Assembly: GCA_903862645.1 (NCBI GenBank) | Contig: CAIOZF010000132.1 | Coordinates: forward strand, 1 to 37,781 | DNA: 37,781 nt | Origin: an uncultured Gammaproteobacteria bacterium | GTDB lineage: Bacteria > Pseudomonadota > Gammaproteobacteria > Pseudomonadales > Pseudohongiellaceae | Direction: 5' to 3' | Part shown: positions 3,370-37,048 of the stretch, one piece after another | Layout: each line of letters begins with the position of its first letter | How positions within the stretch are numbered: the first letter of the stretch is position 1 | Translations under genes and position numbers: made by a program | The notes under the pieces: model-generated | Database searches by the model: none | What the model was told of the DNA's origin: nothing | What the model saw: the letters and a program-made list of their open reading frames with translations, nothing else

Positions 3370-3924
3370 TTGAACATCATTCCGACCCGCATCCCCGACG
3401 TGCTTATCCTCGAACCCCGTCTGCACGGCGATCATCGTGGTTTCTTCATGGAAACTTGGCGCGCTTCCACTTTCGAGAGCATCGCGCCGGGTATTGCGTT
3501 CGTGCAGGATAACCACAGCAAGTCCGGTCGCGGCATCCTGCGAGGCCTGCACTATCAGCTGCAACAACCTCAGGGCAAGCTGGTGCGGGTGATCGCAGGT
3601 GAGATCTACGATGTCGCGGTCGACATGCGCCGCGATTCTCCTACCTTCGGGCAGTGGGTTGGGGAGTTTCTTTCTGCTGACAATCACCGCCAGCTGTGGG
3701 TACCGCCCGGCTTCGCGCACGGGTTCATCGTGACCAGTGAGAGCGCCGAGATGGTGTACAAGTGCAGCGATTACTATGCCCCGGCCGACGAACATTCGCT
3801 GCTGTGGAATGATCCGGCACTGGCCATTGACTGGCCACTGGAAAGGATCGGGGTGCCTGAGCCCGTGCTTTCAGACAAGGATCGCAACGGCCGACTCTTT
3901 GCTGAAGCACCAACCTATGAATAG
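3370..3924 (+). CDS. rfbC: dTDP-4-dehydrorhamnose 3,5-epimerase
   Basis: 184 residues, the normal length for RmlC/RfbC. It converts dTDP-4-keto-6-deoxy-D-glucose to the L-lyxo isomer, the third step to dTDP-L-rhamnose. The family signature is clear: DHRGFFMETW, then GILRGLHYQ with the catalytic His61, Lys70, Tyr130 in MVYKCSDYY, and the cupin strand VPPGFAHGF at residues 111-119. The start is TTG at 3370, supported by an AAGG seven bases upstream; no ATG fits the conserved N-terminus NIIPTRIPDV. The gene ends with TAG, which shows that amber works as a stop here. It lies between the epimerase and rfbD. Confidence 0.95.
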   Translation: MNIIPTRIPDVLILEPRLHGDHRGFFMETWRASTFESIAPGIAFVQDNHSKSGRGILRGLHYQLQQPQGKLVRVIAGEIYDVAVDMRRDSPTFGQWVGEFLSADNHRQLWVPPGFAHGFIVTSESAEMVYKCSDYYAPADEHSLLWNDPALAIDWPLERIGVPEPVLSDKDRNGRLFAEAPTYE

Positions 3925-3973
3925 TCCTCGCCGACAGCGGCGCCTACCCTGACCGGGAAACCCGAGCGAATCG

Positions 3974-4852
3974 ATGCAAAAGAGAATTGTCATTACCGGA
4001 GCCAACGGTCAGCTTGGCCAGACACTGGTGCGGGGTGAGTTGGCGGAGTCCAATATCCTGTTTCCACTCGGGCGGACTGAACTGGACATCACGGATCAGC
4101 CTAGCGTGGCCGCTACACTTGAGTCCCTCAGGCCTGAGATCGTCATTAACAGCTCCGCCTACACCGCAGTGGATGCTGCGGAGAGCAACGCGGCTGCCGC
4201 TTACTCGATCAATGAGCAGGGGGTCAGGAACCTGGCCCTGTGGTGCCAGCGCAGTGGTGCCCATCTGATCCACATCTCTACTGACTTTGTCTTCAGTGGC
4301 GAAAAGAACCAGCCCTACCGGGTCGATGATCCGGTGGGACCCTTGAGTGTCTACGGTCAAAGCAAGCTGGCCGGTGAGCGGGTACTTGCAAGCCTGTTAC
4401 CGAAGCAGTCTTCGATCGTCCGCACAGCCTGGCTTTACTCTCCCTACAACACGAATTTCATGTTGACCATGCTGCGTCTGATGCGTGAGCGCGAGTCATT
4501 GAACGTCGTAGATGATCAGCTTGGTACCCCCTGTTCTACTGCCACTCTGGCGCAGTGTCTGCACGCTTTGGTGCAAAGCGAACTGCCCGGCGGCATTTAC
4601 CACTGGGCCGATGCCGGGGTGGCCAGCTGGTATGACTTCGCCGTCGCAATTCAAGAAGAGGCGTTGGCGTTGTCGCTTCTGGATCGCGCCATTCCCGTAA
4701 ACCCGATTCCCACGATGCAATATCCGACGCCTGCGCGGCGACCCGTCTACAGCGTGCTGGACAAGTCGCGGGCGTTGATGGAGCTGGGTTGCCCGCAGCT
4801 GCATTGGCGTGCGGCACTGCGGGATGTGCTGAAGAGATTGAGCGAGCGCTGA
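3974..4852 (+). CDS. rfbD: dTDP-4-dehydrorhamnose reductase
   Basis: 292 residues, standard for RmlD/RfbD. It reduces dTDP-4-keto-L-rhamnose with NAD(P)H to dTDP-L-rhamnose, the last step. The cofactor motif GANGQLG is at residues 9-15. The catalytic residues are visible as STD (Thr103) and Tyr127/Lys131 in YGQSK. NSSAYTAVDAAE and GIYHWADAG are also typical of the family. The start ATG is 49 bases after rfbC, and the stop TGA directly abuts the region where rfbB begins, so this is part of one operon. Confidence 0.95.
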   Translation: MQKRIVITGANGQLGQTLVRGELAESNILFPLGRTELDITDQPSVAATLESLRPEIVINSSAYTAVDAAESNAAAAYSINEQGVRNLALWCQRSGAHLIHISTDFVFSGEKNQPYRVDDPVGPLSVYGQSKLAGERVLASLLPKQSSIVRTAWLYSPYNTNFMLTMLRLMRERESLNVVDDQLGTPCSTATLAQCLHALVQSELPGGIYHWADAGVASWYDFAVAIQEEALALSLLDRAIPVNPIPTMQYPTPARRPVYSVLDKSRALMELGCPQLHWRAALRDVLKRLSER

Positions 4853-4900
4853 ATGGCCCACCCAGTCCGCAACAATGTTCGACTATTGAGAATGGAAACA

Positions 4901-5983
4901 ATGCGAAACGTACTGGTCACAGGCGCGGCTGGCTTCATCGGCGCCAATTTCACGCACTACTGGCTGCAGCGCTACCCGCAGGACCGCCTGATTGCCTTGG
5001 ATGCCCTCACCTACGCGGGCAACACCTGGAATCTGCACGGCGTATGGGATAACCCGCGCTTCACTTTCGTGCAGGGCGACATCTGCGACCAGGCCCTAGC
5101 GGAACAGTTGCTCACGCAGCACGATATCAACACGATCATCCACTTTGCCGCCGAGAGCCACGTCGATCGCTCCATCACCGGCCCGGATGCGTTCATCAAC
5201 ACCAACATCGTCGGCACCCACAGCCTGCTGAAGGCGGCCAAGAAGTGCTGGCTGGATCAGCCCGAGAAGAAGCCCCACCACTTTCACCATGTCTCCACCG
5301 ACGAAGTGTATGGCACGCTCGGCCCCAAGGACCCAGCGTTCACGGAGACCACGCCCTACGCGCCGAACTCTCCCTACGCAGCGAGCAAAGCCGCGTCCGA
5401 CCATCTGGTGCGCGCGTATCACCATACTTTCGGTCTGCGGGTGACCACCAGTAATTGCTCCAACAACTATGGCCCGTGCCACTTCCCGGAAAAGCTCATT
5501 CCCCTGTGTCTGCTCAACATCCTGCATGGCAAGGCTCTACCGATTTATGGTGATGGACAGCAGATCCGCGATTGGCTGTACGTAGATGACCATGCCCGAG
5601 GCATCGATCTGGTGGTCAGTAAGGGTCGCCCCGGCGAGACGTACAACATCGGCGGCAACAACGAGTGGGCCAACATCGACACCGTGAAACTGCTGTGTCA
5701 GCTGGTGGATGAGTTGTTTGCCGCCGATGCATCATTGCGCGCGCGCTTCCCGGCCTGTCCGGCGGCCAGTGGCAAACCCGGCGCCAGCCTGATCACTTTC
5801 GTGACCGATAGGCCCGGCCACGACACCCGCTATGCCATCAATGCTGGCAAGATCATGAGTGAGCTGGGCTACAAGCCGCTGGCAGGATTCGATCAAGGAC
5901 TGCGCAAGACTGTGCAGTGGTATCTGGACAACGAGGGGTGGTGGCAGAAGATTCTGGATGGCAGCTACCGCCAAGGCTTTTAA
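4901..5983 (+). CDS. rfbB: dTDP-glucose 4,6-dehydratase
   Basis: 360 residues from the ATG at 4901 (MRNVLVTGAAGFIG), which matches the usual family start and length. In-frame ATGs at 4892 and at 4853, the latter directly after the rfbD stop, would add 3 or 16 atypical residues. It dehydrates dTDP-D-glucose to the 4-keto-6-deoxy sugar using bound NAD. The motif GAAGFIG is at residues 8-14. The catalytic set is Thr133-Asp134-Glu135 in STDEVYG and Tyr159/Lys163 in YAASK. SNNYGP and RDWLYVDDH are family hallmarks. It is the last gene of the polysaccharide block. The thymidylyltransferase rfbA, usually adjacent, is missing here. The convergent Calx-beta gene ends 33 bases downstream. Confidence 0.95.
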   Translation: MRNVLVTGAAGFIGANFTHYWLQRYPQDRLIALDALTYAGNTWNLHGVWDNPRFTFVQGDICDQALAEQLLTQHDINTIIHFAAESHVDRSITGPDAFINTNIVGTHSLLKAAKKCWLDQPEKKPHHFHHVSTDEVYGTLGPKDPAFTETTPYAPNSPYAASKAASDHLVRAYHHTFGLRVTTSNCSNNYGPCHFPEKLIPLCLLNILHGKALPIYGDGQQIRDWLYVDDHARGIDLVVSKGRPGETYNIGGNNEWANIDTVKLLCQLVDELFAADASLRARFPACPAASGKPGASLITFVTDRPGHDTRYAINAGKIMSELGYKPLAGFDQGLRKTVQWYLDNEGWWQKILDGSYRQGF

Positions 5984-7699: not shown

Positions 7700-7880
7700 G
7701 TTGGTAAGGTAAAGCCTTAAGTGAGAGAGACGCCCTGTCAGCGGCAAAGGGCCGGAATACTTGAGCCGCGGCCAGACGCAACTTTTATCTTATCACTCTT
7801 TTGCCCGCACGACTGGCGAAATTTTGTGACATACTTGCCCGCACTCTTCGCCGTGGGCCGTTGTCCCAGAAATAAAAATT

Positions 7881-8528
7881 ATGCGCGCCATCTCGCTTCA
7901 TCTGCCGCTTTGCAGGCTCAGCGTTGCCATGCTGCTGATGCTTGTCGTCAATTTGAATGCTGCCGCCAGCACCCTGCTGCAGATGAGTTTCGGAGAGCTG
8001 GTCGGGGGTGCGGAATTGATCTTCGAGGGGCGCGTTGTTGCTGTGGAGCCTCGCCAGCAACCCGGAGAAATGATCAAGACCTGGGTGACGTTTGCCGTTA
8101 TCGATGTGGTCAAAGGTAACTTCGCAAAAGACGAGATTGAATTGAGTTTCCTGGGGGGGCGTTTGGGTGGTCGAAAGCTGGAAGTTACCGACATGGCCAT
8201 TCCCGAGATCGGAGAAACGGGTTTCTATTTTGTGGAGACCTTGCTTGAGGCTCAAGTCAATCCGCTCCTGGGCTGGGATCAGGGGCGGTATCTGATAGAG
8301 ACGCAGCCGGATGGCGACACGGTGGTGACAACCGCCGATCATGATCCTGTTCTCGCCCTGGACGTTGAAGCCCCCGCTGCTGCGAACGGCCAACCGATGA
8401 ATATCCTTGAGACTGGCAGAGCCGACGGCGTGCTAGTGCAGTCCTTTGGTACGGCCAGTTTTCTGAGCCAGCCAATGAGTGTCGAGGACTTCAAGACCTC
8501 TATTCTTTCAGTGCTGGCACGTCCATAG
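7881..8528 (+). CDS. Small exported protein paired with a matrixin protease, function unknown
   Basis: 215 residues. The N-terminus MRAISLHLPLCRLSVAMLLMLVVNLNAAAS is a typical signal peptide with cleavage near residue 30. The mature part begins TLLQMSFGELVGGAELIFEG, followed by beta-rich sequence with KTWVTFAVIDVVKG and GFYFVETLLEA. This pattern is seen in uncharacterised exported proteins of marine and soil gammaproteobacteria. There are no cysteines in the mature part and no catalytic motif. The stop is TAG at 8526-8528, and the protease start follows 19 bases later on the same strand. The pair is therefore probably co-transcribed, and a role as partner, inhibitor or substrate of the protease is possible. 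That is inference from position only. Confidence 0.72.
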   Translation: MRAISLHLPLCRLSVAMLLMLVVNLNAAASTLLQMSFGELVGGAELIFEGRVVAVEPRQQPGEMIKTWVTFAVIDVVKGNFAKDEIELSFLGGRLGGRKLEVTDMAIPEIGETGFYFVETLLEAQVNPLLGWDQGRYLIETQPDGDTVVTTADHDPVLALDVEAPAAANGQPMNILETGRADGVLVQSFGTASFLSQPMSVEDFKTSILSVLARP

Positions 8529-11204: not shown

Positions 11205-13250
11205 TTAGAAGCCGCCAAACAGATCCTTCAGTCCCGCCAGAGCTGCAGCGGCCTTCTCCTGTTTCTGTTCAGGCGTGGCATTGCCGCGCCCTTCCCAGTC
11301 CAGCAGATCCTGCGGGAGTTCGTCGAGAAAGCGGCTCGGAGTTGTGGTGACCGTCTCGCCAAATTGTTTGCGTTTGCGAGCCAGCGTGAAGGTCAAGCCC
11401 CTCTGTGCGCGGGTAATACCGACGTAGGCTAGACGCCGCTCCTCCTCGATATCACCGCTCTCGATGCTGTTGCGATGCGGCAGCAATTCCTCTTCCATGC
11501 CCATGATGAAAACATAGGGAAACTCCAGTCCCTTGGCTGCGTGCAAGGTCATCAGTTGTACCTGATTGTTGATGTCCTCTTCTTCCTGCCGTTCGAGCAG
11601 GTCGCGCAGAATCAGCTTGTTGATGGCGGTCTCTATATCCGCTTCCTCGTCGCCCTCCTCCTCGGCTTTGGTCAGGCTTTTCTGGAGCTGTTCGATGAGC
11701 GTACCGACATTGGCGATGGCACGCTCGGCAGCGTTTTGTGAGGGGCTGCTCTGGTGCAACCAACCTTCGTAATCCATGTCGCGGATCATCTCTTGAATTG
11801 CCGCAATGCTGTCGCCACGCTGCGACTGCTCGCTGATGTTGGACATCCATTGCGCAAATTTCACAACGCGCTCGCGCTTGTTTTCGGGGAGAAACTGCCC
11901 GAGACCGATTTCGTTGCAGGCACTGAGCAAGCTGATCTGTCGTTCACTCGCATAGTTGGCGAGGCCTTCGAGAATGGACGGGCCAATTTTGCGACGCGGA
12001 GTGTTCACCGCGCGCAGGAAGGCGTTGTCATCATCCGGGTTGATCAGTAGGCGGAGATAGGCCATGACGTCTTTGATTTCGGTGCGCGAGAAGAAAGAGG
12101 TGCCACCTGTAATCTGATAGGGAATCTGATTGGCTTGCAACTGAATTTCCAGCGCTTTGGCCTGATGGTTGCCGCGATAAAGCACGGCAAAATCCTTGAA
12201 GTGCAGGCGCTGATTAACGCACAGAGCGAGAATCTCCGTGGCGATCCGCTCCACTTCTGTTTCCTGATTGGGCGATGTGATGACACGTATCTGGTCGCCT
12301 ACGCCAAGTTGACTCCACAGCTTTTTCTCATACAAGTGCGGATTGTTGGCGATCAGCGTGTTGGCGGCTGTAAGAATATTGTTATTGGAACGGTAGTTTT
12401 GTTCCAGCTTGATGAGTTTGAGATTCAAATAATCTTTTTCGATCTGCACTATGTTCTCAGGGCGGGCACCACGCCACGAGTAGATCGACTGATCGTCGTC
12501 ACCCACCACGGTGAGCCCTGAGCGCGATCCCACCAGCAGCTTCACCATTAGATACTGCCCGGTATTGGTGTCCTGATACTCATCGACCAGCAGATAGTGA
12601 ATGCGATTCTGCCAGCGTTCCAACACGTCCGCATGGGTCTGGAACAGCGTGACGGGCAGCAGAATCAGGTCGTCGAAATCCACTGCGTTAAAAGCATTGA
12701 GGTGACGCTGGTATTGCGCATACACCCTTGCTGCAAAGACCTCTTCTGCCTCACTGGCAGTCCGAATCGCCTGCTCGGGCAACACCAGCTGGTTCTTCCA
12801 GTTGGAGATCGTCGTCTGGATGCGCTTGATCTGGTCATCACCCAACTCCCCCTCCTTGTGCAGCAGACTCTTCAATAGTGCCAGGCTGTCTTGGCTGTCA
12901 AAAATCGAGAAGCCGGATTTGAAACCCAGGCGTGCGTGCTCCTTGCGAATGATGGTCAGGCCGAGATGATGAAAGGTTGAGATTGTCAGGCCACGAGTGT
13001 TGTTTGATCCTTCCCGCTCGCGCGCGAGTTTGCCGACACGCTCTTTCATCTCGCGTGCGGCCTTGTTGGTAAAGGTCACAGCGGCGATCTTGTGAGCGGG
13101 GTAGCCACACTGATTGATCAGATAACTGATCTTCTGGGTGATCACACTGGTCTTGCCACTACCTGCCCCGGCCAGTACCAGCAAGGGGGAGCTGATATAT
13201 TTGACCGCCTCAAGTTGGCGCGGATTGAGTTTATTCACGGAGGGTTTCAC
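11205..13250 (-). CDS. rep: ATP-dependent DNA helicase Rep
   Basis: 681 residues (E. coli Rep is 673). This superfamily 1A 3'-5' helicase helps replication forks past protein blocks. Walker A is AGAGSGKT at residues 27-34; the Walker B box is VDEYQDTN. Motif III is DDQSIYSWRGA, motif V is MTLHAAKGLEFP and motif VI is AYVGITRAQ. The N-terminus LNPRQLEAVKYISSPLLVLAGAG and the short C-terminus (no long UvrD tail) favour Rep over UvrD or PcrA. The start is a GTG at 13250; a second in-frame GTG four codons in is equally plausible, and neither has a clear ribosome binding site. It converges with the cytochrome genes and is divergent from the GGDEF/EAL gene. Confidence 0.95.
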   Translation of the reverse strand: MKPSVNKLNPRQLEAVKYISSPLLVLAGAGSGKTSVITQKISYLINQCGYPAHKIAAVTFTNKAAREMKERVGKLAREREGSNNTRGLTISTFHHLGLTIIRKEHARLGFKSGFSIFDSQDSLALLKSLLHKEGELGDDQIKRIQTTISNWKNQLVLPEQAIRTASEAEEVFAARVYAQYQRHLNAFNAVDFDDLILLPVTLFQTHADVLERWQNRIHYLLVDEYQDTNTGQYLMVKLLVGSRSGLTVVGDDDQSIYSWRGARPENIVQIEKDYLNLKLIKLEQNYRSNNNILTAANTLIANNPHLYEKKLWSQLGVGDQIRVITSPNQETEVERIATEILALCVNQRLHFKDFAVLYRGNHQAKALEIQLQANQIPYQITGGTSFFSRTEIKDVMAYLRLLINPDDDNAFLRAVNTPRRKIGPSILEGLANYASERQISLLSACNEIGLGQFLPENKRERVVKFAQWMSNISEQSQRGDSIAAIQEMIRDMDYEGWLHQSSPSQNAAERAIANVGTLIEQLQKSLTKAEEEGDEEADIETAINKLILRDLLERQEEEDINNQVQLMTLHAAKGLEFPYVFIMGMEEELLPHRNSIESGDIEEERRLAYVGITRAQRGLTFTLARKRKQFGETVTTTPSRFLDELPQDLLDWEGRGNATPEQKQEKAAAALAGLKDLFGGF

Positions 13251-13421: not shown

Positions 13422-14381
13422 GTGCGAATACTGCTGATTGCCGAACAGGATGCCGAGTTCAGGATGGTCGGAGACCTACTGAAAGGCATACCGGCAGAAG
13501 ATTACCAGTTGTCCTGGTGCCAGGCGGATGTCTCTGTCCTGGAGTCGACGGCTGTTAGCAGGTTTCAGTTGATTCTATGGGGTTCCATCTCCGACTCTCA
13601 CATTGCTCGCGACATTCTCACTGAGCTGGGGCGCCAACAGGCCACAGCCCCTATTGTCATGCTGGTCGATGAGGCTCCCGCCGGTGTTGACCTTGAAGCC
13701 GTTCGCAAAGGCGAGTCGGATGTACTTCTACGCTCCTGCCTTAATTCGGACATCCTGCACCGCTCCATTCGTCGTTTCGCGCGCCGGAGCTTGGAAGTAC
13801 CGCACCTGGAGCCCCCGACTTCCGACCCGCTGACCGGGTTGAGTAACCGCCAGGATTTCCGCGAGCAATTGTCGCGCATTCTCGCGGATGCCGAGACCCC
13901 GGAGTCCGTGGGTCTGCTGCTGATCGACGTCGACCAGTTCAAAAAAGTGAATGCTTCCTATGGGCAGGGCGCAGGCGATGCGCTGATTCAGTTTATCGCA
14001 GAGCGGGTTCGATCGAGTCTTTCCACCCACCAGCGGGTCGCCCGCATCGGCGGCAATGAGTTTGCTGTGGTATTCCAGAATGTCATGGGTTCGGTGGAGT
14101 CTGAGTGCCGGGTCAGCATTGAACGCATCATCCAGTCTATGTCCAGGCCTTTTCCGGTCGCTCAGCATGCCATCCGCATAAATGTCAGCATGGGCATCGC
14201 GATGAACAAGGACACCGGCGTGACGGTCGACGCCATGCTTGCCCACGCCGACATGGCCATGCGTATCTCCAAGCGCGAGAAGGGTTGCAACTATCAGTTT
14301 TATAGCAGTGACATGACTGATGCTGCCCAGACCATACTCAAGCTGGAGGCGGAGATCCGCCGTGGTATCCGCAGCGAATAG
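13422..14381 (+). CDS. Pseudo-receiver plus degenerate GGDEF domain, ended by an in-frame amber codon
   Basis: About 319 residues from a GTG at 13422, with GGGG seven bases upstream; a GTG at 13377 is an alternative. Residues 1-115 resemble a response-regulator receiver (VRILLIAEQDAEFRMV, then FQLILWGS where the phospho-acceptor Asp would be expected), so it looks unphosphorylatable. A GGDEF domain follows (DPLTGLSNRQDFREQL, LLIDVDQFKKVNASYG), but the signature is GGNEF (codons at 14049-14063). The loss of the acidic third residue makes cyclase activity unlikely. TAG at 14379-14381 stops translation just where the EAL domain should begin; the same frame continues with an intact EAL domain. 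As annotated it would be a non-cyclase fragment. See the next entry. Confidence 0.78.
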   Translation: MRILLIAEQDAEFRMVGDLLKGIPAEDYQLSWCQADVSVLESTAVSRFQLILWGSISDSHIARDILTELGRQQATAPIVMLVDEAPAGVDLEAVRKGESDVLLRSCLNSDILHRSIRRFARRSLEVPHLEPPTSDPLTGLSNRQDFREQLSRILADAETPESVGLLLIDVDQFKKVNASYGQGAGDALIQFIAERVRSSLSTHQRVARIGGNEFAVVFQNVMGSVESECRVSIERIIQSMSRPFPVAQHAIRINVSMGIAMNKDTGVTVDAMLAHADMAMRISKREKGCNYQFYSSDMTDAAQTILKLEAEIRRGIRSE

Positions 14382-15152
14382 TTCGAGCTGCATTATCAGC
14401 CGCGCATCGACATCAAGCAGAACCGGATTGTCGGTGCAGAATGCCTGGTGCGCTGGCGGCACCCCACCCGTGGATTGTTGGCTCCAAGCCACTTCATCGC
14501 GGTAGCAGAAGAAAGTGGTCTGATTGTGCCGCTCGGTTACTGGATCATTCAACACGCCTGCAAGGACCTGAACGAACTGGCCAGCAAGGGGCACCATGAT
14601 GTGCAGCTGGCGGTGAATGTGTCCTTCAAGCAGTTCCAGGACAAAAACTTCGTGCAGACAGTGGCCAATATCCTGAACAAGCAGGGGATTACGGCAGGTC
14701 GGCTGGAGTTCGAACTCACGGAGACGACGATGATGATCGAGGGTCAGTCTGTGGACCAAAGCCTGCGCAAACTGAGTGAACTGGGCATCGATATCTCGCT
14801 GGACGACTTCGGCACTGGCTACTCCTCCTTTGCCCATATCCAACGTCTGCCGATCTCGATTCTCAAGATCGACCGCTCATTTGTCAGCAGTGTCACCTCT
14901 AACGAAGATGATGCCACCATCGTCAAGGCCATCATCAATCTTGCCCACAGCTTGAGCATGCAGGTGATAGCAGAGGGAGCCGAGACCGCTGAGCAGGTAG
15001 AGTTCCTCTGCTTGAACAAATGCGATCAGGTTCAGGGTTTCTTCTTCAGTAAACCGGTCAGCTTCGACAATCTGAAGAAGTTGCTGGGACAGGAAGACTT
15101 TGTCGACCGACACATTCAGGCGATCCTTGCAAAGAACAGAGCGCTGACCTGA
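14382..15152 (+). pseudogene. EAL-domain half of the split GGDEF/EAL protein, in frame after an amber codon
   Basis: The reading frame of the preceding gene continues without any shift for 256 codons after TAG. It begins FELHYQPRIDIKQN, the standard start of an EAL c-di-GMP phosphodiesterase, where related proteins usually have Gln just before FELHYQP; CAG to TAG is the simplest change. The domain looks catalytically complete: ECLVRW (variant of EAL, Glu kept), NVSFKQF, ELTETTMM, DDFGTGYSS, KIDRSF, AEGAET and QGFFFSKP. An internal restart is possible only at a GTG (14448) lying after the EAL glutamate, which would give a crippled enzyme. Either the gene is a recent nonsense pseudogene, the base is a sequencing error, or amber is read through. 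The whole gene would be 13422-15152, a FimX-like layout. Confidence 0.78.
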
Positions 15153-15233
15153 TTCCTGACTCTACCTTGCATTCCGCCGTATCCTGAACTATTAGTTGAA
15201 ACAACCCCATGAATGAACTCCAAGGATGGAACC

Positions 15234-16799
15234 ATGTCACTGGCGATTGTTCACACCCGCGCCAATGTCGGCATTGAAGCACCGCTCGTGACCGTGGAGA
15301 CGCATATCTCCAATGGCTTGCCCAGTCTTGCCATTGTCGGCCTGCCCGAGGCGGCTGTACGGGAGAGTCGTGAGCGGGTTCGCAGCGCCATACTCAATGC
15401 CAATCTTGAATTACCCACCCGCCGAATTACCATCAATCTGGCGCCTGCCGATCTGCCCAAGAGCGGCGGACGCTTCGACCTTGCTATCGCCATCAGCATC
15501 CTCGCCGCCTCCGGCCAGATTCCTGCGGGGCGCCTGGTCGGCTATGAGATTCTGGGAGAACTGGCATTGACCGGCGCCGTTCGCTCAGTGCACGGTGTAC
15601 TACCTGCTGTGTTGGCAGCAAGGGACAGCGGGCGGGTGCTGATACTGCCTACCATGAACAGCGACGAGGCCTCGCTGGTGCGTGGGGTCAAGGCCTTTGC
15701 GGCGGCGACCTTGCTGGATCTGTGCAAACATCTGCTCGCTGGCAGCGGACTCATGCCCTGTCATTTCGAGCCAGCCGTGGCAATTCCTGAGGAATCTGGG
15801 CAACTGCGCGATCTCGGTGAGATTCGTGGCCAGCACACTGCCAAGCGAGCTTTGCAGATCGCTGCGGCAGGAGCTCATAACATCCTGTTCGTCGGTCCTC
15901 CCGGCACCGGCAAGACGATGCTGGCGAATTGCCTGCCCTCTCTGCTGCCGCCGCTGGACGAAAAAGAAGCGCTCGAGGCGGCGGCCATCAAGTCAATCTC
16001 GCGACAACGAATCGATACGAAGCGCTGGATGGAGCCGGTATTCCGGTCGCCTCATCACAGCGCCACCAGCGTCGCGCTGGTTGGTGGTGGCGCGCATGGT
16101 AGTCCCGGTGAGGTGACACTGGCGCATCGGGGCGTCTTGTTTCTGGACGAGCTGACAGAATTCAATCGCAGCGTACTCGATGTTTTGCGCGAGCCGCTCG
16201 AATCTGGCGTCATCACTATCAGTCGCGCTAACTATCGCATGCAGCTGCCAGCGAATTTCCAACTGGTGGCGGCGATGAATCCGTGCCACTGCGGATATTA
16301 CGGTGATCCGCAGGGCCGTTGCCGCTGCACACCAGAGAAGGTGCAGCGCTATCTGGACAAAATCTCCGGGCCTTTGCTGGATCGCATTGATCTGATCATT
16401 GAGGTGCCGCGAATTGCGCATCAGGACTTGCGTGCTGCCACTATGAGCAGTGTCTTAGTCAAAGCTGGGGTATCCGAAAACGATGTAGCACGCAGGAGGG
16501 TTTCGCAGTGCCGGGCATTGCAAAAAGAACGCTGCGGCAAGCTGAACAGCGACCTCGGCAACCCTGATATCGAAGTGTTTTGCGAACTGGACGACTCAAG
16601 CGAGAAACTGCTGTCAATGGCGGTCGAAAAGCTGCGTCTGTCCGCGCGAGGGTGTCACAGAATTTTGAAGATCGCGCGCACGATTGCGGACCTTGAGCAG
16701 CACACCTGCATTCAACAACGTGACCTTACGGAGGCCATCGCCTATCGCCGAATGGAAAAGTTCTTTCGTTTGGCGGCGCAGCCCGACGATTCGTTATAA
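15234..16799 (+). CDS. comM: YifB/ComM family Mg-chelatase-like AAA+ ATPase
   Basis: 521 residues from ATG 15234 (MSLAIVHTRANVGIEAP), with AAGGA seven bases upstream; the earlier in-frame ATG at 15213 has no such support. The N-terminal domain (VETHISNGLPSLAIVGLPE) has the Lon-protease-like fold of the family. The AAA+ core has Walker A GPPGTGKT at residues 221-228 and Walker B LFLDELTEF near 302-310. The Mg-chelatase insert contains AAMNPCHCGYYGD. In Vibrio and Haemophilus, ComM is a hexameric helicase that drives branch migration during natural transformation and recombination. Many non-competent bacteria also carry it, so competence cannot be concluded. It converges with ubiK, a neighbour also seen in pseudomonads. 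Confidence 0.93.
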   Translation: MSLAIVHTRANVGIEAPLVTVETHISNGLPSLAIVGLPEAAVRESRERVRSAILNANLELPTRRITINLAPADLPKSGGRFDLAIAISILAASGQIPAGRLVGYEILGELALTGAVRSVHGVLPAVLAARDSGRVLILPTMNSDEASLVRGVKAFAAATLLDLCKHLLAGSGLMPCHFEPAVAIPEESGQLRDLGEIRGQHTAKRALQIAAAGAHNILFVGPPGTGKTMLANCLPSLLPPLDEKEALEAAAIKSISRQRIDTKRWMEPVFRSPHHSATSVALVGGGAHGSPGEVTLAHRGVLFLDELTEFNRSVLDVLREPLESGVITISRANYRMQLPANFQLVAAMNPCHCGYYGDPQGRCRCTPEKVQRYLDKISGPLLDRIDLIIEVPRIAHQDLRAATMSSVLVKAGVSENDVARRRVSQCRALQKERCGKLNSDLGNPDIEVFCELDDSSEKLLSMAVEKLRLSARGCHRILKIARTIADLEQHTCIQQRDLTEAIAYRRMEKFFRLAAQPDDSL

Positions 16800-16838
16800 G
16801 CGCTGAGATGCAGACGTGCAGCCAAACTCTGGGATTTT

Positions 16839-17114
16839 TCAATTGCTGGCGGCGGAGTCCTGTTCATCGATTCCATCGATCATCTGCTCAAGCCTGGACA
16901 TCTCGGTCTCCAGATAAGCGATACGCTCCTCAGCCCGGGCCAAGGCTCTACGCTGACCATCGAAGTCCTCCCGTGTCACTAGATCCAGGCGCTCGAACCC
17001 TTTTTGTAGCGCAGAGTTGACCGCTTTGCGCACGTCCTCGCCCACGGCACCTGCTTGCGGCAGCAAGCGGCTGATCTGCTGGCTGAGATCCTCAAAAAAT
17101 TGTTTGTCTATCAT
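16839..17114 (-). CDS. ubiK: Ubiquinone biosynthesis accessory factor UbiK
   Basis: 91 residues from ATG 17114 (MIDKQFFEDLSQQISRLLP), with GGAG eight bases upstream; an earlier in-frame start at 17150 adds an atypical leader. This is the BMFP/DUF526 family (YqiC in Enterobacteria). The N-terminal amphipathic helix FFEDLSQQISRLLP is followed by VREDF-type sequence (LVTREDFDGQRRALARAEER) and a C-terminal coiled coil (about residues 50-80) that drives trimerisation. In E. coli and Salmonella it associates with UbiJ and lipids and is needed for efficient aerobic ubiquinone synthesis. The stop lies 39 bases from the convergent comM stop. Confidence 0.9.
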   Translation of the reverse strand: MIDKQFFEDLSQQISRLLPQAGAVGEDVRKAVNSALQKGFERLDLVTREDFDGQRRALARAEERIAYLETEMSRLEQMIDGIDEQDSAASN

Positions 17115-32634: not shown

Positions 32635-33864
32635 CTAGAAAAGCACTCTGCAGCGGATAGTGCCTTTGACGTCGTTGAGTTTATTGAGCGCAAGTGCGCT
32701 GTATTCAACATCGATGTCAGTGACGACGTAACCAATCTCATCATTGGTCTGCAGATACTGCGAACGAATGTTGATGCCGGTCGCCGAAAAAATGCCGTTG
32801 ATTTCCGAGAGCACGCCTGGAATATTCTTGTGAATATGCAGCAAACGGTGTTTTCCTGGATGCGCTGGCAACGCTACTTCGGGGAAATTGACGGCGGTAA
32901 ACGAGGAGCCATTGTCGCTGTATTTCACCAGCTTTTCGCTGACTTCCAGTCCGATATTTTCCTGCGCTTCCATCGTGCTTCCGCCCACGTGCGGGGTCAG
33001 GATGCAGTTGTCGAATTGACGCAGCGGCGATATGAACTCGTCTTCGTTGGAGCGAGGCTCCACCGGAAATACATCGATAGCAGCGCCGGACAGGTGACCG
33101 TTATGCAACGCTGTGGCGAGGGCGTCAATGTCGACCACGGATCCGCGCGACGCGTTGATCAGGATGCTGCCCTTCTTCATCCAGCTAATTTGTTCTGCGC
33201 CAATCATGTTGGCGGTTTGTAGGGTTTCCGGCACGTGCAGGCTGATGACATCGCACGTTTGCATGAGCTCTTTCAATGAGTGGATCTGAACTGCATTGCC
33301 TAGAGGCAGTTTGGTGACGATGTCGAAGAGATAAACTTTCATGCCCATGGATTCTGCGAGCACACTTAGCTGCGATCCGATATTGCCGTAACCGATCAGG
33401 CCGAGCTTTTTGCCACGCGCTTCGAAAGAGCCGGTTGCAATTTTCTGCCATACACCACGATGAGCCTGCGCATTCTTCTCGGGGACGCCTCGTAACAGCA
33501 AGATGGTTTGGCTAATCACCAGCTCAGCAACACTGCGGGTATTTGAGAATGGCGCATTGAAGACTGGAATACCACGGACCAAGGCAGCATCCAGATCCAC
33601 CTGATTGGTGCCGATGCAGAAACATCCGACAGCCTGCAGCTTTTCCGCTGCGGCAAATACTGCAGCGGTCAATTGAGTGCGTGAACGTATGCCGATGAAG
33701 TGCACATCGCGAATCTTTTCTATGAGATTCTCTTCCGAGAGCGATGTCTTCAGGTATTCGATATTGGTGTAGCCGGCGTTATGCAACGTGTCGACAGTGC
33801 TTTGATGAAGGCCTTCGAGTAGAAGAAACTTAATCTTGCTCTTTTGTAGTGATGTTGGATTCAT
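32635..33864 (-). CDS. serA: D-3-phosphoglycerate dehydrogenase
   Basis: 409 residues (E. coli SerA 410). It oxidises 3-phosphoglycerate to 3-phosphohydroxypyruvate, the first step to serine. The NAD motif GYGNIG is at residues 158-163, and the catalytic triad Arg240 (NASRG), Glu269 (PVEP) and His292 (LTPHVGGST) is intact. The C-terminal ACT domain (about 337-409, HIHKNIPGVLSEINGIF) is the serine-feedback site. Bacterial SerA of this type also reduces 2-oxoglutarate to D-2-hydroxyglutarate, which regenerates NAD. The gene is divergent from the flavoprotein at 33998, which can remove that product. Confidence 0.96.
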   Translation of the reverse strand: MNPTSLQKSKIKFLLLEGLHQSTVDTLHNAGYTNIEYLKTSLSEENLIEKIRDVHFIGIRSRTQLTAAVFAAAEKLQAVGCFCIGTNQVDLDAALVRGIPVFNAPFSNTRSVAELVISQTILLLRGVPEKNAQAHRGVWQKIATGSFEARGKKLGLIGYGNIGSQLSVLAESMGMKVYLFDIVTKLPLGNAVQIHSLKELMQTCDVISLHVPETLQTANMIGAEQISWMKKGSILINASRGSVVDIDALATALHNGHLSGAAIDVFPVEPRSNEDEFISPLRQFDNCILTPHVGGSTMEAQENIGLEVSEKLVKYSDNGSSFTAVNFPEVALPAHPGKHRLLHIHKNIPGVLSEINGIFSATGINIRSQYLQTNDEIGYVVTDIDVEYSALALNKLNDVKGTIRCRVLF

Positions 33865-36579: not shown

Positions 36580-36668
36580 GCTAATTTTCCGGGTTGAAGT
36601 TAACTCCCGCCGATTATACGGGGTTGGATTGTGCCCTGCCCGGAATTTTCAGCGATAGAAGGTCAGCG

Positions 36669-37048
36669 ATGGAAAAGTACGTAAAAGATATTCTCTCTGC
36701 CACAGTCTAGATGTGGCGATAGAGACACCGATTCATCAGGCAGCGATTCTCTCACAGCGACTCGGCAATCAAGTCTTGCTCAAGCGCGAACACCTGCAGC
36801 CGGTGCACAGTTTCAAGTTGCGTGGCGCCTACAACAAGATGGCAGGGCTTTCCGAGGCTGAAGCGAAGCATGGGGTGATCGCTGCCTCGGGGTGTAACCA
36901 TGATGCCGACTACGGGCAGGTACTGGTTGCCACGCAGGTGCCGCGGAGCGAGATGAAGAAGTTCACCGAATGTCCGAAGACCATCGGTTACCGCTATTGG
37001 GATGAGACTGACAACGTCGCGTACGAAACCTTCCTGGCACCGGCCTGA
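36669..37048 (+). pseudogene. ilvA: Remnant of threonine ammonia-lyase, internally deleted and frameshifted
   Basis: The start region is intact (AAGG then ATG 36669): [13 protein letters not shown] is the usual IlvA N-terminus. After GTC the sequence reads TAGAT where TATGAT is expected, so one base is missing near 36709 and the frame shifts into a stop. In the +2 frame the protein continues [20 protein letters not shown] with the catalytic-lysine motif SFKLRGAY, up to [10 protein letters not shown]. It then jumps directly to the C-terminal end of the regulatory domain (DADYGQVLV, then [14 protein letters not shown]). Roughly 380 residues are lost, and the join lies in an Asn-His pair that occurs at both places in normal IlvA. 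The product cannot be active. Confidence 0.87.

Follow-up and report, generated by a model that had tools for sequence, protein, structure and literature searches.

Is the amber codon that divides a c-di-GMP signalling gene in this stretch of DNA the mark of a gene that has just been lost, of one that is still translated in some form, or of an error in the assembly? The window, meaning the whole stretch of 37,781 nucleotides that was analysed, is contig C132 of an uncultured gammaproteobacterial genome (G000) of 3.1 Mb in 254 contigs, which is ~95% complete. By the GGDEF-EAL gene, its closest kin among named records are MAGs of uncultured gammaproteobacteria; of the isolates, Pseudohongiella nitratireducens comes nearest, and the lineage is probably Pseudohongiellaceae-like. 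The reading frame that begins at GTG 13422 and runs to 15152 holds two stops, the TAG at 14379-14381 and the terminal TGA at 15150-15152, with 319 codons before the TAG and 256 codons after it, and no frame change was found when the gene was aligned with its orthologues. An earlier note, made from the sequence alone, had described a single in-frame TAG splitting the gene with no change of frame, and had offered that the codon is recent, wrong or suppressed; both the description and this set of options hold up. The features of the locus are listed below.

Table 1. Features of the interrupted gene and its neighbours, in window coordinates.
Feature	Position	Strand	Remarks
Upstream neighbour, uninterrupted	11205..13250	-	Presumably a UvrD/Rep-type helicase
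GGDEF-EAL c-di-GMP gene with one in-frame stop	13422..15152	+	Continuous in 15 orthologues
Pseudo-receiver, (beta-alpha)5 receiver fold, without phospho-acceptor Asp (by eye)	13422..13811	+	Model of the first 130 residues: mean pLDDT 88.5; best PDB match PleD (E 1.3e-4)
GGDEF domain	13821..14282	+	Degenerate motif GGNEF (14049-14063); no RxxD I-site before it in the window protein (by eye)
In-frame TAG at the GGDEF-EAL junction	14379..14381	+	Glu (12) or Asp (3) in 15 orthologues
EAL phosphodiesterase domain, motif residues present	14382..15149	+	dN/dS ~0.02 against close relatives
First in-frame ATG, GTG or TTG after the stop (GTG)	14448..14450	+	Behind the EAL-motif Glu codon (14439-14441)
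Downstream neighbour, uninterrupted	15213..16799	+	Presumably a YifB-type ATPase

When the window was compared with the ORFs of the relative G013, 30 ORFs were covered over at least 80% and eight of the alignments contained a stop. In seven of the eight, judged by eye, the stops fall either within a 5' extension or within an ORF that lies antisense to an intact gene, which leaves the GGDEF-EAL gene as the only one in the comparison that is cut mid-gene. The same comparison revealed two differences in layout: at 36624-37042 a 520-codon ORF of G013 matches at its two ends only, with ~1.1 kb either missing here or inserted in G013, and at 16756-16874 the presumed YifB-type gene is followed after ~0.1 kb by its neighbour, whereas in G013 additional ORFs (C25:33665-38416) fill several kb of this interval.

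Both domains of the gene score above their Pfam family cut-offs, with GGDEF at 129 bits before the stop and EAL at 253 bits after it, the latter over profile positions 13-236 of 236; the first 12 EAL positions lie before the TAG or are unmatched. The EAL motif residues checked (ECL, NVS, ELTE, DDFGTG, KID, AEGAE and DQVQG) are all present in the window, as expected from the earlier claim of an intact catalytic set. Some of the metal-binding and catalytic ligands of EAL domains are given in PMC5301497. The EAL motif residues are invariant in an alignment of ten orthologues, and all ten share GGNEF with the window, so that neither the window nor any of the ten has the GG[D/E]EF motif of an active diguanylate cyclase. 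In the predicted receiver, a Trp-Gly pair (by eye) stands where the phospho-acceptor Asp usually is. A degenerate GGDEF motif and a receiver that cannot be phosphorylated had both been proposed previously, and these results agree with both.

By sequence and fold, the nearest solved proteins to the orthologue family are the tandem GGDEF-EAL phosphodiesterases MorA (4RNH) and PA0575 (5M3C) of Pseudomonas aeruginosa (E 7e-115 and E 9e-103 by sequence, respectively), which have the same GGDEF-linker-EAL order; unlike these two, the window gene has a pseudo-receiver in front, carries GGNEF and is cut by a stop. The receiver fold ahead of GGDEF is a likeness to PleD-type receiver-GGDEF proteins, PleD being the best fold match, but the orthologues of the window gene add an EAL domain, the acceptor Asp is missing (by eye) and the motif is GGNEF. 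The NCBIfam PleD model aligns to residues 2-286, far below its cut-off. The intact orthologue is predicted, from its sequence, to be of the c-di-GMP phosphodiesterase type. A GGDEF-EAL protein that binds GTP and has only phosphodiesterase activity in vitro is described in PMC10874727, and by analogy the intact form of the window gene may work in the same way.

With the EAL half as the query, some EAL match was found in 53 of 57 genomes, G000 included, and a true orthologue of the gene in 16 of the 35 genomes of the same family. Fifteen of the 16 carry both halves in one reading frame, as a single continuous polypeptide that the TAG denies to the window, and their EAL halves are 72-96% identical to that of the window. 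The idea that the two domains are naturally separate genes, which the earlier note had given as the finding that would overturn its reading, was therefore rejected, the sixteenth orthologue being one that is deleted internally. Where the window has TAG, 12 of the 15 continuous orthologues encode Glu and the other three Asp, never Gln and never a stop; Gln appears there only in more distant homologues, such as those of Rheinheimera. The earlier note had held that Gln normally precedes FELHYQPRID and had suggested a search of relatives for it; that search found Gln in none of the 15, and the proposed origin of the stop from CAG is unsupported.

The stop is thus private to G000, the 15 orthologues being unbroken, as expected of a nonsense pseudogene. 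The sixteenth orthologue, in G004, has been broken independently by an out-of-frame internal deletion, which took out the GGDEF domain together with most of the receiver and about fifty residues from the start of EAL, and left the gene start and both neighbours in place. The deletion is at L185 (G004:C35), at ~3738-4576, between uninterrupted neighbours. G010 has no match better than one of 42% identity, so that it seems to lack the orthologue. Together with the stop in G000, the deletion in G004 and the apparent absence from G010 indicate that the gene has been lost more than once in the genus. One database record encountered in these searches, CAMCRC010000058.1 (L033), is titled Klebsiella pneumoniae and matches G008, of the same genus (83% identity to the window in the EAL half); it is apparently a mislabelled MAG.

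The part of the gene behind the stop has not decayed. Against G013, dN after the TAG is 0.019 and dS is 1.09 (dN/dS 0.017), and dN/dS before the TAG is 0.093, so that selection after the stop shows no relaxation. Amino-acid changes private to G000 number 8 after and 35 before the stop, the other branches showing 3 and 14 respectively (Fisher P = 1). An unrelaxed EAL half is what is expected if the stop is very recent, is an error or is still translated through; given the strength of the constraint, a real stop must be very young, the other possibility being an assembly error. If selection on the EAL domain ended with the TAG, the stop would be younger than roughly 3% of the branch, a bound calculated with 596 nonsynonymous sites and with a dS for the branch that pairwise distances put at 0.76.

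This gene is not the only one in G000 that is broken. The genome gives 12 EAL matches, of which four are full-length without a stop, one is partial (a match of the same kind is present in six of seven relatives), two are full or nearly full with in-frame stops, and five are remnants that span 42 to 104 profile positions; among the remnants, one has a TAG and two score below the family cut-off. The two stop-bearing domains are those of the window gene and of a gene on contig C165 with the order EAL-GGDEF (L184, G000:C165:50000-57596, ~4102-5958), which has two in-frame stops, a TAG and a TGA, and is 77% identical over its whole length to a continuous counterpart in G013. That relative has 25 EAL matches, none with a stop, and in 20 the match spans 200 or more profile positions. 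In the seven relatives together, a stop occurs in 4 of 92 EAL rows, and otherwise readable EAL domains with a stop were found in G002 (TAG at L186, G002:C276, and TAA at L188, G002:C302) and in G006 (TAG at L187, G006:C70). Both are genomes of the same genus and are fragmented like G000 (254-430 contigs); G009, with ~360 contigs, has no stop in its six EAL matches.

When ~725 kb of G000 was scanned by codon usage with 60-codon flanks, 51 possible same-frame interruptions came up, the majority of which simply mark borders between genes. Those judged by eye to be mid-gene were in the two EAL genes, in motY (L151:9203, G000:C231) and pilQ (L148:3068, G000:C182), which have one in-frame TGA each and are open in all four relatives compared, and in the genes of a hybrid histidine kinase (L154:6409, G000:C173), an AMP-binding enzyme (L156:3121, G000:C165) and an NHL-repeat protein (L207:5020, G000:C235), each with one in-frame TAG; the AMP-binding profile runs on across its stop. 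Part of this first sample was chosen for its GGDEF/EAL hits and the mid-gene stops were sorted by eye, so the counts give a biased rate, and a few ambiguous candidates in both genomes (e.g., G000 C98:18481, C98:93982 and C22:64393) were left out. By the same visual judgement, there were no mid-gene interruptions in 480 kb of G013 (37 candidates) or in a further 371 kb of G000 (50-codon flanks, 25 candidates). Between the ORF samples of G013 and G000 there was little overlap (61 and 65 pairs); by eye, the mid-gene cuts in it are confined to the window gene and the one on C165, and the remaining flagged stops sit in 5' extensions or antisense ORFs. The eight interrupting stops comprise five TAG, three TGA and no TAA, which fits random nonsense in the codon usage of G000 (P 0.12) and not its usage of terminal stops (P 0.0016). 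A mutator phenotype through loss of mutY or mutM was rejected as a common cause, since both genes are present without stops in G000, and the junction did not turn up in the viral contigs scanned.

Of the explanations in which protein is still made, general reassignment of TAG can be rejected, as the earlier note had anticipated: the RF1 gene prfA is intact (540 bits, no stop), and in ~1.1 Mb of G000, 79 of the 612 ORFs with 250 or more codons have TAG as their stop. Within the window it terminates two of the 22 uninterrupted genes checked, rfbC (3922) and the gene at 32635; rfbC had been cited earlier as ending in TAG, correctly, along with the gene at 7881, but positions 7871-7895 contain neither TAG nor CTA. 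The suppressor tRNA whose search had been proposed did not appear, there being no CTA anticodon among those of the 36 tRNA matches that ARAGORN typed, one partial match at a contig end being untyped; in a genome ~95% complete, such a tRNA could be missed. That the stop is read through or suppressed, giving low amounts of full-length protein, would account for the strong constraint behind it, and constraint of this sort has led to the proposal that bacteria read through some in-frame stops (PMC7918605). That proposal, however, rests on stops shared between species, and here none of the 15 continuous orthologues has the TAG; with RF1 present, no CTA tRNA typed, and both TAG and TGA interrupting genes in G000, read-through is very improbable. 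Bolder still is the notion that the in-frame TAG and TGA codons of the surface-lifestyle genes (the two EAL genes, motY and pilQ) act as leaky valves, rare read-through letting out a trickle of product, such that attachment and motility are throttled at translation and not lost; this would explain why constraint after the stop is unrelaxed, and we consider it extremely improbable. It is also very unlikely that each half now yields a protein of its own, the front a receiver-GGDEF fragment and the back an EAL fragment made by re-initiation, in the manner of the nonsense-broken cyclases of Shigella. The stop is well placed for this, as in a modelled orthologue it falls between the linker helix leaving GGDEF (296-317) and the first EAL strand (321-330), and dgcE, dgcQ and dgcN of Shigella still make c-di-GMP despite nonsense codons, consistent with internal starts (PMC11327459). 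The front half, with GGNEF, is however unlikely to be a cyclase, and starting at the GTG after the stop would drop the EAL-motif Glu; only near-cognate codons (e.g., CTG 14388) would keep it, and an independent EAL start was rejected accordingly. A split functional protein is for this reason less likely than in Shigella flexneri, where, according to the same paper, the stop precedes GGDEF and alternative frames with a nearby Met encode that domain intact. What had been proposed of a live product thus stands in part: a phosphodiesterase-type protein with GGNEF and a receiver fold without its phospho-acceptor Asp is supported, but a live full-length protein is not, given the position of the EAL-motif Glu before the first standard start and the lack of any sign of suppression.

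The main rival to a real loss, and second to it in our judgement, is that a wrong base in the consensus of a metagenome-type assembly created the TAG and that the living gene is intact, which is possible but doubtful. Such an error would suit the almost perfectly conserved EAL half, an assembly of 254 contigs with other single-stop genes, and the fact that the fragmented G002 and G006 show stops where the more complete G013 has none; for one deposited genome, sequencing errors have been documented among its interrupted genes (PMC1852416). The stops in G002 and G006 count against a real loss to this extent, though G009 has none. Errors, on the other hand, would not be expected to favour surface or c-di-GMP genes, which are four of the seven interrupted (the two EAL genes, motY and pilQ), nor can they produce the EAL remnants of G000, and the relative G004 has lost the same gene by deletion. 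The ABC-transporter domains of G000 (58 matches) also argue against error, with no stop among the matches listed, at a power too low to exclude a low error rate. Considering that the TAG is private, the orthologues continuous, the EAL half constrained, signs of suppression absent, and other EAL genes, motY and pilQ broken, we favour with modest confidence the view that a single nonsense change put a GGDEF-EAL c-di-GMP phosphodiesterase out of action very recently in this lineage. Translation would then end at the TAG, leaving a fragment of pseudo-receiver and degenerate GGDEF without c-di-GMP turnover, and the loss may be tolerated in a lineage that is giving up the surface and motility functions under c-di-GMP control. 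Such a recent nonsense loss, in a lineage from which EAL, flagellar-motor and pilus genes were already disappearing, is the likeliest account, although some of the stops are in genes with no evident surface role (the AMP-binding enzyme and the NHL protein).

The kind of event is already known, as nonsense-broken GGDEF genes have been published for Shigella, and what is shared with S. flexneri is that otherwise near-intact c-di-GMP genes are cut short by a stop in a lineage from which many of their kind have gone (PMC11327459). The point that merits attention is how fresh losses by single stops cluster among surface-lifestyle genes within one genome; in the available parts of the literature on streamlining with c-di-GMP loss and on Pseudohongiella MAGs, nothing on the window gene was found. 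Should the TAG be a base error, then single in-frame stops in metagenome assemblies need to be checked against reads before pseudogenes or recoding are called. If the stop is real, it would be a snapshot of the first step of gene loss, being younger than any visible relaxation of selection, with c-di-GMP, flagellar-motor and pilus genes breaking together in one genome, and the order in which a free-living lineage dismantles its signalling network could then be asked.
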